Source: Candidatus Methylomirabilota bacterium
Lineage (GTDB): Bacteria > Methylomirabilota > Methylomirabilia > Rokubacteriales > CSP1-6
Direction: 5' to 3'
Assembly: GCA_035709005.1 (NCBI GenBank)
Contig: DASTFB010000040.1
Location: forward strand, 1-64,000
Length of the DNA stretch: 64,000 nucleotides
Shown in pieces: positions 9,136-63,562 of the stretch. The first letter of the stretch is position 1, and each line of letters starts with the position of its first letter. The notes below the pieces were generated by a model. It searched no databases and was not told where the DNA came from. It saw nothing but the letters and a program-made list of their open reading frames with translations. The position numbers were made by a program, and so were the translations under genes.

Positions 9136-10362
9136 TCACTGCGCCACACCTGTTCCGCGGCGGCTAGAGAGGACGCCGAGCTCGATTGGGATCGCCACCT
9201 TCGCGAGCAGCGTGAAGACCAGCATCCCGAGGGCCCAGATCCCAAGCGAGACGAACACCTCTGCCCAGGACGGCGTGTACTCGAACACCTCACCGAGCGG
9301 CGTCGGCACGAAGCCCGGGATGACGAGTCCCATTCCCTTCTCGATCCAGACGCCGACGATGGCGAGGACGCAGGCGATGCTCGCGGCGGCCCGGCGTCTC
9401 CGCAGCGGATGCAGGGTGAGAATCGTCGCGGCCACGACCTGCAAGACGATGGCGCTCCAGATCCATGGCACGAGCCGGTTGGCGCCGTCCAGTCCCAGGT
9501 ACAGGTACGTGGCCGCGGTGACCTCCTCGGTGCGGAAGTAGAAATCGGTAAAGAGCTCGGCGCCCAGGAGAAACAGGTTGATCTGGAGCGCCACCGTGGC
9601 CATGAGCGTCATCAGCTGGATCACGGACGCCTGGATCTTGAACGGCGTCTGACGGACGATGACCTGCAAGGCCAGCACGATCAAGGCTGGCCCCGACGTG
9701 AACGCCGAGGCCAGGAACCGGGGTCCGAGCACCGCAGTGTGCCAGTACGGGCGGGCCACGTTCGAGGAGAAGAGAAACGCCGTCACCGTATGGATCGAGA
9801 TCGCCCAGGCGATGGAGACCAGGATCGCCGGAAAGTACACGTTGAGGCGCGGCTCGCGCCCCTGATAGCGGTTGAAGAGCATGTAGAACGGAATCGTGAC
9901 GCTGAGCAGGAGATAGCCGCCGAGAACGACGACGTCCCACGCCAGCAGGGACTCCGGGAAATGCAGCCGTCCGAGCAGGGGGATCATGTGCCACATCCGC
10001 TCGGGCCGTCCCAGGTCCACTACGACGAAGAGGATCGACATGATCACCGCGGCGACGGCGATGCCCTCGCCGATCAGCACCACGTGCTTGACGTCCTCGC
10101 GGTGGAACACGTAGGCGGGGATCACCAGCATCACCGCGGCGGCGGCGATGCCCACCAGGTACGTGAAATTGGCGATGTACACGCCCCACGACACCTGATC
10201 GCTCATGCCCGACGTGATCAGCCCCTGGTCCAGCTGACGCGCGTAGAACAGGAGGCCGGTGAGAATCACGACGCCCAGAGCACCGACCCAGGTCCAGTAG
10301 ACGCGGCCGCCCCGGAACACTTCTCTCACCCCATCGGCGAAGAACGCGGTGACGGCGCGCAT
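9136..10362 (-). CDS. nrfD: NrfD/HybB-type quinone-interacting membrane subunit
   Basis: This 408-aa polytopic protein has about ten hydrophobic segments, for example YWTWVGALGVVILTGLLFYA and SWGVYIANFTYLVGIAAAAVM. It belongs to the NrfD/PsrC/HybB family, which exchanges electrons between quinones and an iron-sulfur subunit. Start ATG 10362 lies 5 bp after the stop of the Fe-S gene; a longer open frame upstream is antisense-like sequence. It is the last gene of the five-gene electron-transfer operon. No catalytic molybdopterin subunit is encoded next to it, so the direction of electron flow cannot be read from the locus. Confidence 0.9.
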   Translation of the reverse strand: MRAVTAFFADGVREVFRGGRVYWTWVGALGVVILTGLLFYARQLDQGLITSGMSDQVSWGVYIANFTYLVGIAAAAVMLVIPAYVFHREDVKHVVLIGEGIAVAAVIMSILFVVVDLGRPERMWHMIPLLGRLHFPESLLAWDVVVLGGYLLLSVTIPFYMLFNRYQGREPRLNVYFPAILVSIAWAISIHTVTAFLFSSNVARPYWHTAVLGPRFLASAFTSGPALIVLALQVIVRQTPFKIQASVIQLMTLMATVALQINLFLLGAELFTDFYFRTEEVTAATYLYLGLDGANRLVPWIWSAIVLQVVAATILTLHPLRRRRAAASIACVLAIVGVWIEKGMGLVIPGFVPTPLGEVFEYTPSWAEVFVSLGIWALGMLVFTLLAKVAIPIELGVLSSRRGTGVAQ

Positions 10363-10367
10363 GGCCC

Positions 10368-11327
10368 TCAGTCCGCGAAATACCAGAACTTGGGTTCGGT
10401 ACCGAGATCTTCCTTGAGCCGGAAGACCGTCTTGTTCTCGAGCACGTACCGGATGTCGCTGTTGGGATCGAGCAGGTTGCCGAAGATGCGCGCGCCGGTC
10501 GGACAGGCCTCCACGCACGCCGGCTGGCGTCCCTTGCGCGAGCGCTGGATGCAGAACGTGCACTTCTCGACCACGCCCCGCGGCCGGGGCCGGTTTCCCA
10601 GGAAGTGGGTGTCCGTGTTGAGGGCCTCCGCGGGCACGGTCGGCTCGTTCCAGTTGAAGTGGCGCGCCCAGTAGGGACAGGCGGCCATGCAGTAGCGGCA
10701 GCCGATGCACCAGTCATAGTCGACGACGGTGATGCCATCCGGCTCCTGCCATGTCGCCTCCACCGGGCACGCCTTGACGCAGGGCGGGTTATCGCACTGC
10801 ATGCACTGGACGGGGAGGTAGAACTTGCCGGGGCGGGGGACGGTCTCAGCCTCGTAGTAGTGGTCGGCGCGGTTCAGGTTCATGTCCCCGTGGTCGAGCT
10901 CGAGAACCCGGATGTACTGCATCGACGAGTCACGGCCGGTGTTGTTCTCTGCGACGCAGGCCTCCACGCACTTCCGCACACCCTTGCACTTGGAGATGTT
11001 GAGGGCGTAGCCGAAGACGACCCCATCCAACGCCGGTTCGGTTCCAACGGTGATGTCCTCTCCGTACTGGCGCTTGGCCCGGCGCTCGATGCGGGCGACG
11101 GCCTCCTTCACCTCGTCAGAGCTCATCCTCTGATAGTGCTTCTGGAAGAGCCGTCCGAGCATGTCGGACAGCGGCTCGGCATCCGCTCCGGCCGCCTTCG
11201 CGGCCTGGGCGAGCGCCGACCGCCCGCCGAACAGCGCGGCGACGGCGCCCACGAGCGCGCCCAGCCCCAGCACCAGACGACGGGTGACACCGAAGGTGCG
11301 CGAGCCGAACCCGGGGTGCTCGGCCAT
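10368..11327 (-). CDS. periplasmic four-cluster [4Fe-4S] protein (DsrO/HybA/NrfC-like)
   Basis: The 319-aa product has an N-terminal export segment (TRRLVLGLGALVGAVAALFGG) after two arginines, compatible with Tat export or a membrane anchor. Cysteine sets follow at 114/120/124, 175/178/183/187, 207/210/213/217 and 256/259/271/275, giving up to four cubane clusters. Such subunits pass electrons between an NrfD quinone protein and redox partners. ATG 11327 overlaps the stop of the small Tat gene as ATGA. Residues 68-88 (MSSDEVKEAVARIERRAKRQY) closely resemble the C-terminus of that small Tat protein. Confidence 0.9.
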   Translation of the reverse strand: MAEHPGFGSRTFGVTRRLVLGLGALVGAVAALFGGRSALAQAAKAAGADAEPLSDMLGRLFQKHYQRMSSDEVKEAVARIERRAKRQYGEDITVGTEPALDGVVFGYALNISKCKGVRKCVEACVAENNTGRDSSMQYIRVLELDHGDMNLNRADHYYEAETVPRPGKFYLPVQCMQCDNPPCVKACPVEATWQEPDGITVVDYDWCIGCRYCMAACPYWARHFNWNEPTVPAEALNTDTHFLGNRPRPRGVVEKCTFCIQRSRKGRQPACVEACPTGARIFGNLLDPNSDIRYVLENKTVFRLKEDLGTEPKFWYFAD

Positions 11328-11545
11328 CAGCGTGCCCGTCTCTTGGCGCGAATGCGGCCCAGCGCCTGCCTCACCTCCGCGCGGCTCATCTTGCGCAGGT
11401 CCCGCACTGACACGTCGCGGGTCGCCGGCCGCGCGGCCGCTACGGCCGCCGCACCCGGGGCCACGGCGGCCCCGGTCCCGAGCAGCGCCGCAGCGCGCCC
11501 GGGCACCCCCCGGGTGAAGAAGTCGCGCCGACTGAGATCTGTCAT
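11327..11545 (-). CDS. small Tat-signal protein of the electron-transfer operon
   Basis: This 72-aa protein begins MTDLSRRDFFTRG, a clear twin-arginine motif. An Ala/Gly-rich hydrophobic stretch follows, then a basic tail. Residues 53-70 (MSRAEVRQALGRIRAKRR) resemble residues 68-85 of the downstream Fe-S protein. ATG 11545 overlaps the stop of the cytochrome gene (ATGA), and its own stop overlaps the Fe-S start (ATGA), so all three are translationally coupled. Candidate roles are a small structural subunit or an assembly helper; neither is proven. Confidence 0.7.
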   Translation of the reverse strand: MTDLSRRDFFTRGVPGRAAALLGTGAAVAPGAAAVAAARPATRDVSVRDLRKMSRAEVRQALGRIRAKRRAR

Positions 11546-12372
11546 CGGGGCTTTCCCTTCTCGTCGCCCAGCCGCTCCCAGATCTTCGGAATCGGGGCCC
11601 GTGGCAGAGGCTGCCGGCTGAGGCCGCTCCGGACCTTGGGTGGCGGGCTCGGCTCGAACGGCTTGATCGATGGCGAATGCGGGTTGTGGCACTCGGTGCA
11701 ATTGAGGATCACGCGCTCCCCACCCCACCGCCCGATCTGGCTGCGATCCTCGACCTTCAGCTCCTCGGCGACCGCCGGGATCTTCCGTTGATCCTCCCAG
11801 GCTCCCTGGCGCTTGCCGTGGCCGCCGAAGAACCAGTCCAGGCGCTGGTAGTGGCACTGCCCGCACAGCTTGTAGGACTCATCGTAGGGAATTCGGCTGC
11901 CGCGTATCGACACCAGGTTGTCGATGTCGGTCCCCTTGTGGCAGGCGTCGTAGCACCAGAAGCGGCCCCCGCCGTGCTCGAAGGTCAGGTTCGTGTGCTC
12001 GTCGACCAACTCGCGCACGCGGCGGTCCACGAACTTGTTGTCGTGGCATTTGGTGCAGGGGAAGTTCCGTATCCGATCCTGCCGCGGGACGACCGTGAAG
12101 GAGGGCGCATCGCCCGTCGTCTGTCCCCGCGCGGTTGCACCCCGGACCGGCTTGCGGCTCTCCATGAGACGGGCGAGCGCCTCATCGGCCTCCTGGCGGG
12201 TCTGGCGCTTCGAAGCGCTGGCGGCGGGCGCGGTTGCCGGAGTCACCGGCCCCGGGGTGTCCGCCGCCCACGAGACGCTCGGCGCCGGGGTCGACGACCG
12301 CAACGCCGAGAGGGCCGCCGCGACGCACAGCGACAGCACGAAGCACCGCCAGTATCGAGCCCCAGGCCTCAT
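11542..12372 (-). CDS. exported tetrahaem cytochrome c
   Basis: The 276-aa product has an N-terminal signal-like segment (CFVLSLCVAAALSALRSS). It carries four haem c sites: C106-TK-CH, C140-YDA-CH (CX3CH), C170-GQ-CH and C225-TE-CH. The unusual three-residue spacing of the second site is clear in the DNA. It is probably periplasmic and relays electrons between the EB_dh-type protein and the Fe-S/NrfD subunits. ATG 12372 is used; GTG 12381 is an alternative three codons earlier and sits closer to AGGAAAGGA. Its stop overlaps the next ATG. Confidence 0.88.
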   Translation of the reverse strand: MRPGARYWRCFVLSLCVAAALSALRSSTPAPSVSWAADTPGPVTPATAPAASASKRQTRQEADEALARLMESRKPVRGATARGQTTGDAPSFTVVPRQDRIRNFPCTKCHDNKFVDRRVRELVDEHTNLTFEHGGGRFWCYDACHKGTDIDNLVSIRGSRIPYDESYKLCGQCHYQRLDWFFGGHGKRQGAWEDQRKIPAVAEELKVEDRSQIGRWGGERVILNCTECHNPHSPSIKPFEPSPPPKVRSGLSRQPLPRAPIPKIWERLGDEKGKPR

Positions 12373-12398
12373 CGAACCCACCCGTTCCTTTCCTCGAA

Positions 12399-12421
12399 GG
12401 GCCCCTCGGCGCGAGGGGCCC
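12399..12421 (-). promoter_or_regulatory. strong intercistronic hairpin in the haem operon
   Basis: GGGCCCCTCG and CGAGGGGCCC form a perfect 10-bp GC-rich stem with a 3-nt loop. It lies between the EB_dh gene stop (12439) and the cytochrome ribosome site. No T-run follows, so an mRNA-processing or stability hairpin, or an attenuator setting subunit ratios, is more likely than a full terminator. Confidence 0.6.
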
Positions 12422-12438
12422 CTCGCCGGGAAGCCCGA

Positions 12439-13494
12439 TCACTTGAAGGTGAGCCGGTGCACACCCTCGTGGTAGAGGTGATTGATCGCCGTGTTGTCGA
12501 ACACCGACAGTCCGAAGTGGTACGGCTTCTTGAGGTCGCTGAACTGCACGTCCTGCTCTTTGGCCTTGTCTCCGCTCGTGACGAGCTTGCGCTTCATCTC
12601 CAGCGTCCAGGCGCCGTTTTTCCACACGCCCTTGGCCGCAATGTCACCGCGCGAGCCGTCGAAGGGGGCGATGACGATGCCGGCGACCACGTCACCGGGC
12701 TTGAACGTGTCGACGAAGTCCGTCTTCTGCTCGTCGAGGATCCAGTACTTGTTCGCGGCCGGCGTCTTGCTCATCCACGTGGGGCCGCTCTTGTCCTTCT
12801 TGACGTTGTCGACGTACCCCCCGCCTGTCTTGGCGTCGGTCCTCCGGCCCCAGTTGGCGTTCTTCGCCGGGTCCTTGGTGTTGTCCACGTACTGGTCATC
12901 GACCTGGCCGACCGGGTTCGTCCGGACGGCCTTCCAGTGCCACATGTCGATGGTCTCGCCGCCAGCGTCGGTGTACTTGCGGCCCGGGGACTTGTCCTCG
13001 ATGCCGGCGATCTTGCCGCCGCGCGCCTTGTGGCAGGCGACGTCGCACCCCTTCTTGTCGAATCCCTTGGCGCTGATGTTCCAGAACACGGCAAGCTTGT
13101 CTTCGTAGTAGGTGTTCTCGTGCCCCGTGCGGTCCTGGGCGGCGAGCTTCTTCCACTTACCGTCGGGCTGCTTCACCCAGGGTCCGCGCTCGAGACTCTC
13201 AGTCGGGTCGGCCCATTGCACAAGGAAGTAGATGTTCTCGGCGTCGTACATCGATTTCATCGTCACGTTGCTCTTGGTAATGCCCTTGTAGTTCTCTGGC
13301 TTGTAGGACGTCTGGTCCACGGTGAACTTGTACGCGGGAACCTTGTCCCAGGCCGCGTCGGCCACTCCGTCGATGGTCGGCGCCTTGTCGGTCTTGACGC
13401 TGACCAGCGACTTCTGGGCCAGGGCCGGAGTCGCGGTCAGCATGAGGAACAACAGGGCCGTTGTCCCGGCTGACGTCATTGCGCGCGTTCGCAT
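12439..13494 (-). CDS. EB_dh-domain (ethylbenzene dehydrogenase gamma-like) haem protein
   Basis: The 351-aa product starts with a signal peptide (TSAGTTALLFLMLTATPALAQ). The mature part matches the EB_dh/DOMON-like haem-binding domain of type II DMSO reductase gamma subunits (APTIDGVADAAWDKVP; NIYFLVQWADPTES; DKLAVFWNIS; PYHFGLSVFDN). In addition it has C150-DVA-C154-H155, a CX3CH haem c site within the domain. ATG 13494 is preceded by AAAGGGGG. It is the first gene of the minus-strand operon. A sigma-54-like promoter lies 58-73 bp upstream of the start codon. Confidence 0.85.
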   Translation of the reverse strand: MRTRAMTSAGTTALLFLMLTATPALAQKSLVSVKTDKAPTIDGVADAAWDKVPAYKFTVDQTSYKPENYKGITKSNVTMKSMYDAENIYFLVQWADPTESLERGPWVKQPDGKWKKLAAQDRTGHENTYYEDKLAVFWNISAKGFDKKGCDVACHKARGGKIAGIEDKSPGRKYTDAGGETIDMWHWKAVRTNPVGQVDDQYVDNTKDPAKNANWGRRTDAKTGGGYVDNVKKDKSGPTWMSKTPAANKYWILDEQKTDFVDTFKPGDVVAGIVIAPFDGSRGDIAAKGVWKNGAWTLEMKRKLVTSGDKAKEQDVQFSDLKKPYHFGLSVFDNTAINHLYHEGVHRLTFK

Positions 13495-13551
13495 CGGTGC
13501 CCCCTTTCCGCCGACCGTGATGGCGCCGGCTGCTTGTGAACCGGCGCTGGG

Positions 13552-13567
13552 TGCAAGCCATGTACCT
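13552..13567 (-). promoter_or_regulatory. candidate sigma-54 promoter of the haem/Fe-S/NrfD operon
   Basis: On the minus strand the sequence reads AGGTACATGGCTTGCA. It has GG (-24) and GC (-12) separated by exactly 10 nt and a perfect TTGCA -12 block. Transcription would start near 13542, about 48 nt before the EB_dh ATG. Confidence 0.5.
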
Positions 13568-13575
13568 GATCGGCG

Positions 13576-13599
13576 TGTCCGAACTGTTTGGGTCGGACA
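13576..13599. promoter_or_regulatory. inverted repeat TGTCCGA-N10-TCGGACA
   Basis: A perfect 7-bp dyad with a 10-bp spacer lies between the two divergent sigma-54-like promoters. Such a site suits a dimeric enhancer-binding or other regulator acting on both sides. Assignment is by symmetry and location. Confidence 0.45.
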
Positions 13600-13813
13600 G
13601 GCAGGATTTGGCGGCGATTCCAGGCGACTCGGGCCGCAAGATCGCTCGGGATAGGCTGGGGTGATCGCGCCCCGGTGGGGCCCCAACGCCCCGCATCGCG
13701 CGGCCCAACACCCGCGTTTGGCCCGTCCACCTCCCACGACGGACTTCGTCCAAATCGTGACTTTTCGATGAGAATGCCAACGACGGGCTGGGGCCAAAGC
13801 TGGCCCGGGCGAG

Positions 13814-13828
13814 TGGCACAGTCCTTGC
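13814..13828 (+). promoter_or_regulatory. candidate sigma-54 promoter of gltA
   Basis: TGGCACAGTCCTTGC matches the -24/-12 consensus at all ten defined positions (TGGCAC-N5-TTGC), with GG-N10-GC spacing. Start of transcription is predicted near 13840, giving a leader of about 45 nt before ATG 13885. Confidence 0.65.
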
Positions 13829-13884
13829 CCGCAGCTCTGCCGTCGAGGTGCGGCGCACGGCACGGTGAAAGCGGAGGGCACGCC

Positions 13885-15146
<1,262 letters not shown>

Positions 15147-15150
<4 letters not shown>

Positions 15151-16337
15151 AGACCAGCATGTACGCCAGCGCGCCCGCGCGCGTGTACTGGGAGCTCACG
15201 CGTGCGTGCGACCTGGCGTGCCGCCACTGCCGCGCGGAGGCGTACCGCGAGCGCGCCCCCGACGAGCTCACCACGACGGAGTGCGAGCGCGTGCTCGACG
15301 CGCTCGCACAGTCGGCCGCTCCGAAGCCGCATCTGATCTTCACCGGAGGCGACCCGCTCAAGCGCCCGGATCTCGTGATGCTGGTGCGAGCGGCGGTGGC
15401 GCGCGGGTTCGCCGTGTCGGTGGCCCCGAGTGCGACCGCCGGGATCACCGGCGCGGTCGTCCGCGAGCTGAAGGGCGCCGGGGTGAGCGCAATGTCCCTG
15501 AGCCTGGACGGACCGAGCGCCGCGCATCACGATGCCCTGCGGGGGGTGCTGGGCTGCTTCGGCTGGACGCTCTCGGCGGGACAGCGTATCGTCGGGGCCG
15601 GCATCCCGCTGCAAATCAACACCTTGGTGACCGCGGACACCGAACCCCTGCTGGAGGACACCGTCAAGGTGGTGGTTGGCCTGGGGGCCGCCCGCTGGAG
15701 CCTGTTCTTCCTGGTGACCGTCGGCCGGGGCCGAGCCTTGACGCCGGTGGATTCGGTGACATGCGAGCGACGCCTGCGGTGGTTGGCCGCCAACGCCGAG
15801 CGCTGGCCGTTCGTGGCCAGCACGACGGAGGCCCCCCACTATCGTCGCGTCCTCATCCAGCGTATGCGTGCCGCCGGGAAAGGCACCGTGGATATTCCGA
15901 CGAGCGGACGCGGCTGGGGCATCCGCGACGGCAACGGCATCATGTTCATCTCCGCGGGCGGCGACGTGATGCCGTCGGGGTTCCTGCCCCTCGCTGCAGG
16001 CAACGTCCGCCAAGTCAGCCCGCTCGACGTGTACCGCGACGCGCCGATCTTCCGCGCACTGCGCACACCCTCGCTTCTCCGAGGTCGCTGCGGCGCATGC
16101 GAATTTCGCATCCTGTGCGGCGGCTCTCGGGCGCGTGCCTGGGCTGCCAGCGGTGATGCGTTCGGGGAGGACCCGTTGTGCGGGTGGGCCGAGGCGCCAG
16201 CGCTTCGTCCCGGCGTCGAACGCGACGAGCTCCTCGGCGGCGAGAGCGCGCAAGATGTGCAGGCACGTGCTCGGCACGAGCTCGCGCGCGGCCTCGCGCC
16301 GGCCAAGCAGGCGCAGGATCGCGATCGCTCGTATTGA
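15147..16337 (+). CDS. radical SAM/SPASM protein of the TIGR04053/AhbD-NirJ type
   Basis: The 396-aa product carries the radical SAM motif C21-DLA-C25-RH-C28 and the HLIFTGGDPLKRPD and MSLSLDGPSAAHHDALRG segments. A SPASM auxiliary-cluster region has cysteines at about 315, 318, 324 and 345. The family includes enzymes that act on tetrapyrroles, so a role in haem modification beside a multihaem operon is attractive but unproven. ATG 15147 overlaps the gltA stop. Residues from about 348 to 396 are not family sequence; they are antisense to an IclR fragment (16185-16343). The original C-terminus was probably replaced by read-through. Confidence 0.85.
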
Positions 16338-62336: not shown

Positions 62337-63407
62337 ATGACCCTTGGACTCGATTCGTATCAGGCGCTCACGAACAGTGACGCTATGCGCAGGCTGAACG
62401 GAATCGTCGACCGTGTGGCGGCATCCGATGTCACCGTCCTGATCTGCGGCGAAAGCGGCGCGGGAAAGGAAATCGTGGCCCGGGCCGTCCACGGCCGCTC
62501 ACGGCGGCGCGACGGGCCCTTCGTCAAGGTGAACTGCGCGGCCCTGCCCCTGGAGCTGCTCGAAAGCGAGCTGTTCGGCTACGAGCGGGGCGCGTTCACC
62601 GGGGCCGTCCACGAGAAGCCGGGCAAGTTCGAGCTGGCCGAGGCGGGGACGATCTTCCTGGACGAGATCGGCGAGATGCCGGTCGCCCTGCAGGCCAAGC
62701 TGCTCCAGGTACTGCAGGACCGCGAGTTCTGCCGGCTGGGCAGCCGCCATGACATTCGGGTGGACGTGCGGGTCGTGGCGGCCTCGAACCGCGATCTGGC
62801 GCGGGAGGTGAAGCGCGGGGCCTTTCGCGAGGACCTCTTCTATCGTCTCAACGTCGTCAGCGTCCGTGTTCCGCCGCTGCGGGAGCGACGCGAGGAAATT
62901 CCCGTGCTGGTCGAACATTTCCTGGAACGTTACAGCCAGGAGCACGGCTGCTCGCCGCCGCGTGTCTCCGAGAGCACGCTGCAGCGCCTGATGCAGTACG
63001 ACTGGCCCGGGAACGTCCGCGAGCTGGAGAACATCGTCAAGCGGATCGTGATACTGGGGAGTGAGGCGGTCGTCGACGAGTTGCAGGAGGTCGAGAGGCC
63101 CGGATCCCTCGATGCTCCGCTGTCCACCGCGACGGGGCCCGGAGCCGTGCCGGCGGACGGCCTCTGGCCCGAGCTCGGCTCCGACACGCTCGGCCTCAAG
63201 GACGTCGTCCGCAAAGCGGCCGAGGAGACCGAGCGCCGCATGCTGAAGAGCGTCCTGGAGCAGGTCTGCTGGCGGCGCGTCGAGGCCGCCCAGGTTCTGC
63301 GCATCAGCTACAAGACCCTCCTCGAGAAGATCAAGTACTACGAGCTCGATCGACGAGCGGCGGAGACAGCGCAGGTGCCTCCGCGCGTTTCGTCGGACGC
63401 CCGTTAG
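62337..63407 (+). CDS. sigma-54-dependent transcriptional activator without receiver domain
   Basis: The 356-aa AAA+ enhancer-binding protein has GESGAGKE (Walker A, 38-45), the sigma-54 contact loop GAFTGA (85-90), IFLDEIGE (Walker B, 106-113), [24 protein letters not shown] and [17 protein letters not shown] Fis-type helix-turn-helix near the C-terminus reads [21 protein letters not shown]. There is no N-terminal response-regulator domain, so it may be constitutively active or controlled by a partner or its amount. ATG 62337 is used (GTG 62331 is close). A sigma-54-like promoter lies 95 bp after its stop. Confidence 0.95.
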
Positions 63408-63501: not shown

Positions 63502-63516
63502 TGGCACACATCGTGC
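63502..63516 (+). promoter_or_regulatory. candidate sigma-54 promoter before the small exported protein
   Basis: TGGCACACATCGTGC matches TGGCAC-N5-TTGC at nine of ten defined positions, with GG-N10-GC spacing. Transcription would start near 63528, about 35 nt before ATG 63563. The sigma-54 activator gene is directly upstream. Confidence 0.6.
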
Positions 63517-63562
63517 CTGTGACGAGACCGCTCGGCAGCGGGTCGAGAGCACAGGAGGGCCG

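Follow-up and report, generated by a model that had tools for sequence, protein, structure and literature searches.

Within the 64-kb stretch of DNA analysed here (the window), a gap of 389 bp separates two divergent transcription units, whose original assignment to an EB_dh operon on the minus strand and gltA on the plus strand was borne out by Pfam and NCBIfam. On the plus strand, gltA (13885-15150) encodes a type I citrate synthase scoring above the TIGR01798 cut-off, and the following gene, whose start overlaps the gltA end, encodes a radical SAM/SPASM protein (rSAM; 15150-16337, TIGR04053). On the minus strand, the operon begins with an EB_dh-domain heme protein (12439-13494, PF09459), followed by a multiheme c-type cytochrome recognized by profile match (11542-12381), a small protein with a twin-arginine-like motif (11327-11620; read from the frame alone, with an uncertain start, and without a family match in the NCBIfam search), a DsrO-related iron-sulfur protein (10368-11327; 196 bits vs. 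a DsrO cut-off of 200), and an NrfD/DsrP membrane subunit (9136-10242; above the DsrP cut-off). This EB_dh, multiheme cytochrome, DsrO-like, and DsrP set (9136-13494) is an uncharacterized electron-transfer complex, and the same genes occur in L055, a MAG labelled Candidatus Lambdaproteobacteria, with an EB_dh protein 69% identical. It resembles the DsrMKJOP and EB_dh/DMSO-reductase type II modules in its DsrO/DsrP-like subunits and EB_dh heme protein; it differs in that the five genes read include neither DsrM/K nor a molybdoenzyme subunit.

Three further citrate-synthase-family genes are present in the window genome, each nearest to type II models. As one of four family members, gltA is not the sole TCA entry enzyme. 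Because all three of the other genes are nearest to type II models, the window gltA is best regarded as an isozyme used conditionally. It does not belong to a prp operon: the product is a TIGR01798 citrate synthase, its neighbours are EB_dh and rSAM, and no prp genes lie beside it. The gltA-rSAM pair is conserved across the family, the radical SAM protein travelling with the citrate synthase gene, and 17 of 57 same-family genomes have a gltA of this type together with rSAM. The window GltA is shorter by ~8 residues in its N-terminal region (DLQRLGLL, vs. DLRQIKxGxxDFGLL in relatives).

Sigma-54 box ahead of gltA

The box facing gltA-rSAM (TGGCACAGTCCTTGCC, 13814-13829, plus strand) lies 71 nt upstream of the gltA ATG. 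At 13814-13828 it reads TGGCACAGTCCTTGC, a perfect TGGCAC-N5-TTGC and the highest sigma-54 score in the 64-kb window; when the intergenic region is shuffled with dinucleotides preserved, 0.25% of the shuffles produce a plus-strand site as good. The original prediction had placed a box here, facing gltA, and it is confirmed both as the window's best match and by its retention at gltA in relatives. A genome-wide sigma-54 scan, likewise proposed there and, as with all genome-wide scans in this work, carried out as a pattern search, returned 22 perfect matches vs. 8 for the reversed control pattern, several of them within ~1 kb of activator genes by their coordinates. RpoN is intact in this genome (204.7 bits; a frame of 466 aa that includes the ARRTVAKYRE box), which also encodes about 30 enhancer-binding proteins. 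A further sigma-54 activator domain is found in the window itself at 62370-62864, with a sigma-54-like site (TGGCACACATCGTGCC, 63502-63517) ~0.6 kb downstream.

Among genomes whose upstream DNA was readable, a sigma-54 box stands ahead of the gltA operon, either directly or before the operon's first genes, in 13 genomes of the same family and, outside it, in one (G038) that belongs to a different family within the order. The box is directly upstream of gltA at -86 in G009, G029, and G080 (with two different spacer sequences) and at -42 in G011; it precedes a small cysteine-rich reading frame ahead of gltA in G013, G079, G027, and G077, an AhpD-like gene in G006, a methyltransferase-like gene in G032, and a Usp gene in G016, G071, G072, and G018. 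In five loci (L173, L187, L175, L182, and L172) the reading frame between the sigma-54 box and gltA is cysteine-rich, with the pattern CPFL..YPHG..FCTxGxHHxC. Since the box is conserved across the family, we regard the predicted sigma-54 control of gltA as strongly supported. More distant genomes of the same class have no gltA-upstream site of comparable strength, those outside the order being weak, and such control thus seems confined to the family and the one other-family genome. Conservation, offered originally as a check on the whole arrangement, extends to the gltA box and stops short of the EB_dh/gltA neighbourhood and of the dyad first proposed between them: EB_dh does not adjoin gltA in the relatives, and the divergent arrangement occurs only in the window genome.

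Palindromes between the divergent promoters

The dyad first proposed as the enhancer, TGTCCGA-N10-TCGGACA (13576-13599), is a real and perfect sequence placed between both boxes, which is what speaks for a model in which it serves as the activator site. At least one perfect dyad with 7-bp arms nevertheless occurs in 52% of shuffles of the gap, the TGTCCGA dyad is not enriched genome-wide (16 matches with up to 2 mismatches vs. 14 for the control), and it is absent from the related gltA promoters that were compared. On these grounds we ruled it out as an enhancer, and the model built on it retains almost no likelihood.

A second palindrome, overlooked in that prediction, behaves differently. 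Two conserved copies, A (GGGGTGATCGCGCCCC, 13658-13673) and B (GGGGCCCCAACGCCCC, 13677-13692), lie 19 nt apart and together (13658-13692) follow the consensus TGGGGCG-N4-CGCCCCA repeated every 19 nt with 1 mismatch; none of 2000 shuffles has fewer than 3 mismatches. A palindrome search upstream of the sigma-54 boxes in 19 of these gltA-linked promoters, which form 14 independent groups, found GGGGC-N6-GCCCC in 9 of the 14. Across 300 dinucleotide shuffles, the most widespread palindrome word was present in at most 4 groups, and this word in at most 1. With up to 2 mismatches it is present in all 19 promoters, in many of them as a pair spaced 19-21 nt apart. When the genome carrying the window was scanned for the 19-nt tandem, the window copy ranked first with its 1 mismatch and only two others had 2 mismatches, on contigs C71 and C87, at both of which a sigma-54 box follows after 87-89 nt; the remaining seven, with 3 mismatches, are at control level (10 in all vs. 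12).

We then extended the tandem-dyad scan to the 57 family genomes, allowing up to 2 mismatches, and read 31 distinct sites beyond the gltA promoters. A sigma-54 box scoring at least 12.5 was found 20-150 nt away at 19 of these (~0.4 expected from the background rate), and one scoring at least 13.5 at 14 of the 31 (~0.1 expected), although the 31 sites are not all independent, because some are orthologous Usp promoters. Measured from the start of the dyad, the boxes tend to fall at about 88, 98, 110, and 121 nt, which is suggestive of helical phasing. In the window, the distance from the start of the tandem to the plus box is 156 nt, above the 86-122 nt usual elsewhere, and that to the minus box discussed below is 125 nt. 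Read from their sequences, the apparent targets elsewhere in the family include Usp operons, cytochrome genes, and a cytochrome-oxidase-subunit-like gene. GC-rich dyads of this kind could also be terminators or repeat elements with no tie to sigma-54, as might be argued from the single GGGGC-N6-GCCCC, which is not enriched genome-wide (35 vs. 42 for the control). Such elements would hardly account for a fixed 19-nt tandem spacing at set distances upstream of sigma-54 boxes across genera, and the window copy lies between divergent genes, where a terminator is not expected and where no terminator-like site was detected; we give this explanation very little credence. Based on the conservation, the shuffles, and the genome scans, we take the tandem dyad to be a real regulatory element, the predicted enhancer for an AAA+ activator.

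Possible control of the EB_dh operon

The box that the original prediction located on the minus strand at 13567-13552 is present (AGGTACATGGCTTGCA, 13552-13567), ~58 nt upstream of the EB_dh ATG; as a sigma-54 match it is weak. It has 8 of 10 consensus bases, and its score is reached by chance in 6% of shuffles when the entire gap is used and in 1.5% when shuffling is restricted to the 163 bp from the tandem enhancer to the EB_dh start. The minus box could therefore be a chance match, with gltA-rSAM alone under sigma-54 and the enhancer and the EB_dh operon served by an unrelated promoter. The separation of EB_dh from gltA in relatives favors this explanation, as do most EB_dh homologs, including the closest (L055), whose upstream regions contain neither sigma-54 sites nor the enhancer; the homologs fetched from named genomes gave one marginal sigma-54 match (L083) and zero enhancers upstream. 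On the other hand, no sigma-70 promoter was detected on the EB_dh side, and the box lies ~58 nt from the ATG and 125 nt from the enhancer start, near the spacing seen elsewhere. Furthermore, in G021 and G080, which represent two other genera, a tandem dyad (with 0 and 1 mismatch, respectively) and a sigma-54 box head EB_dh-containing operons, in which an EB_dh homolog is accompanied by cytochromes and Rieske/cytochrome b proteins, a different complex from that in the window. We consider control of gltA-rSAM alone unlikely, while giving it appreciable weight. Because the G021 and G080 operons carry both elements, shared control of the window EB_dh operon is credible despite its weak box. The proposal of one enhancer-binding protein for both genes is accordingly plausible, given these two operons and the tandem dyad between the boxes, though the dyad it chose is not the enhancer and the EB_dh box is weak. 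Overall, we think it quite probable that the gap serves as a divergent control region for sigma-54, in which one tandem enhancer is shared by both sides and operated by an NtrC-type two-component system.

A candidate two-component system and its predicted regulon

The tandem dyads on C71 and C87 point to candidates for both components of that system. The C71 dyad adjoins a minus-strand gene of the window genome (G000:C71:13660-15057) whose product combines a receiver domain (PF00072), an AAA+ domain with GAFTGA (PF00158), and a Fis-type HTH (PF02954), which places it in the NtrC family; the dyad is followed by a sigma-54 box and then a Usp-BirA-Usp-kinase-receiver operon. On the other side of this activator gene lies a second, divergent sigma-54 box (TGGCACCCGGCTTGCT, at L219:6362), with a one-mismatch dyad 71 nt upstream, which faces Usp genes and a YeeE/YedE-like transporter set. 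The C87 dyad comes directly after a PAS histidine kinase gene; beyond it lie a sigma-54 box and genes for a receiver protein and a DASS/citrate-type transporter. In G018, G072, and G032, a single stretch holds, in this order, the orthologous kinase and activator genes, a sigma-54 box, Usp genes, gltA, and rSAM, the Usp operon running on into gltA-rSAM. The C71 regulator is 75% identical to the one in G072, vs. at most 49% for the genome's other activators; for the C87 kinase, identity to the kinases of G018 and G032 is 59-61%. Because this regulator and kinase match the gltA-linked pair of the relatives, the kinase-regulator-gltA cluster appears to have been split over three places in the window genome (the gltA gap, C71, and C87), each of which retains an enhancer and a sigma-54 box.

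Orthologs of the C71 activator (60-78% identity, with paralogs at most 54%) are present in 15 of the 17 genomes with this gltA and in 5 of the 40 without it (Fisher p about 8e-8, ignoring relatedness), and the regulator is found in 7 of the 8 genomes with tandem sites away from its own locus (p 0.002); since the genomes are related, these counts overstate their independence. The tandem dyad might instead be bound by another of the ~30 activators, the C71 protein merely neighbouring its own target. The size of that repertoire allows for this, as does G021 (81% complete), which has a perfect tandem dyad and in which no C71 ortholog was found. An accidental neighbourhood is harder to reconcile with the enhancer lying just downstream of the activator gene in seven genomes (the window genome, G002, G013, G016, G032, G033, and G078) and beside the kinase in the window genome, or with the co-occurrence of activator and gltA/enhancer across genomes, and we judge a different activator to be rather improbable.

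We therefore return to the C71 product as the most likely regulator, with the C87 product as its candidate kinase. The sites, their conservation and spacing, and the genomic associations come from sequence; from them we infer binding, the phosphorylation partner, the direction of control, and the signal. We propose that sigma-54 RNA polymerase would sit in a closed complex at 13814-13829 ahead of gltA-rSAM, and probably also at 13552-13567 ahead of the EB_dh operon. The NtrC-type response regulator, phosphorylated by the membrane PAS histidine kinase, would bind the tandem dyad at 13658-13692 and open one or both promoters through DNA looping and ATP hydrolysis. The same pair would also drive the Usp-protein operons and the receiver-protein/DASS-transporter operon, which is a second reason to view this citrate synthase as conditional. 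Because the promoter and paired site recur beside one two-component regulator, gltA, and probably the respiratory complex as well, would be switched on with stress-protein genes; citrate synthase would rise together with respiratory electron transfer, presumably on a redox- or energy-related signal. The best reading is of one predicted two-component/sigma-54 regulon covering citrate synthase, respiratory complexes, and Usp proteins.

The predicted system is of the NtrB/NtrC-glnA type in its PAS histidine kinase, its receiver-AAA+(GAFTGA)-Fis regulator, and its tandem palindromic enhancer ~70-160 nt upstream of a -24/-12 promoter. It differs in its targets, here citrate synthase, Usp proteins, and cytochrome operons, and in an enhancer, TGGGGCG-N4-CGCCCCA, unlike the NtrC site. 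In PrpR/sigma-54 control of prpBCDE, too, sigma-54 and an enhancer-binding protein govern a gene of the citrate synthase family; however, the product of PrpC is 2-methylcitrate and PrpR does not belong to the two-component receiver proteins, whereas the enzyme here is a type I citrate synthase outside any prp neighbourhood. In Geobacter sulfurreducens, TCA-cycle and respiratory genes have been linked to the RpoN regulon in a report that names fumarase and acetyl-CoA transferases and whose text does not mention citrate synthase or gltA (PMC2725144). An rpoN mutant of Paraburkholderia phymatum shows increased gltA expression, the reverse of what is proposed here (PMC5979394). Our literature search returned nothing joining citrate synthase, sigma-54, and an enhancer-binding protein, and nothing on Rokubacteria with RpoN. 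The mechanism, an NtrC-family activator with sigma-54, is classical; the set of targets, the sequence of the enhancer, and the host group have, as far as the searched literature shows, not been described. Judged by kinship and genome sizes, the host is probably a Rokubacteria-like member of Methylomirabilota.

With moderate confidence, we propose that this uncultured family possesses an undescribed two-component/sigma-54 regulon in which a dedicated type I citrate synthase isozyme and respiratory complexes (EB_dh-cytochrome-DsrOP) would be activated from one shared tandem enhancer, along with Usp proteins and a transporter of the di/tricarboxylate type, and which may link TCA carbon entry to a respiratory-stress signal. 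The regulator, kinase, enhancer, and target list constitute a regulatory hypothesis for an uncultured group that is testable with synthetic DNA and an RpoN host, and the enhancer sequence offers a way to locate the remaining members of the regulon by sequence alone. To our knowledge, citrate synthase is usually transcribed from housekeeping promoters; sigma-54 control would tie its expression strictly to the activator and its signal.
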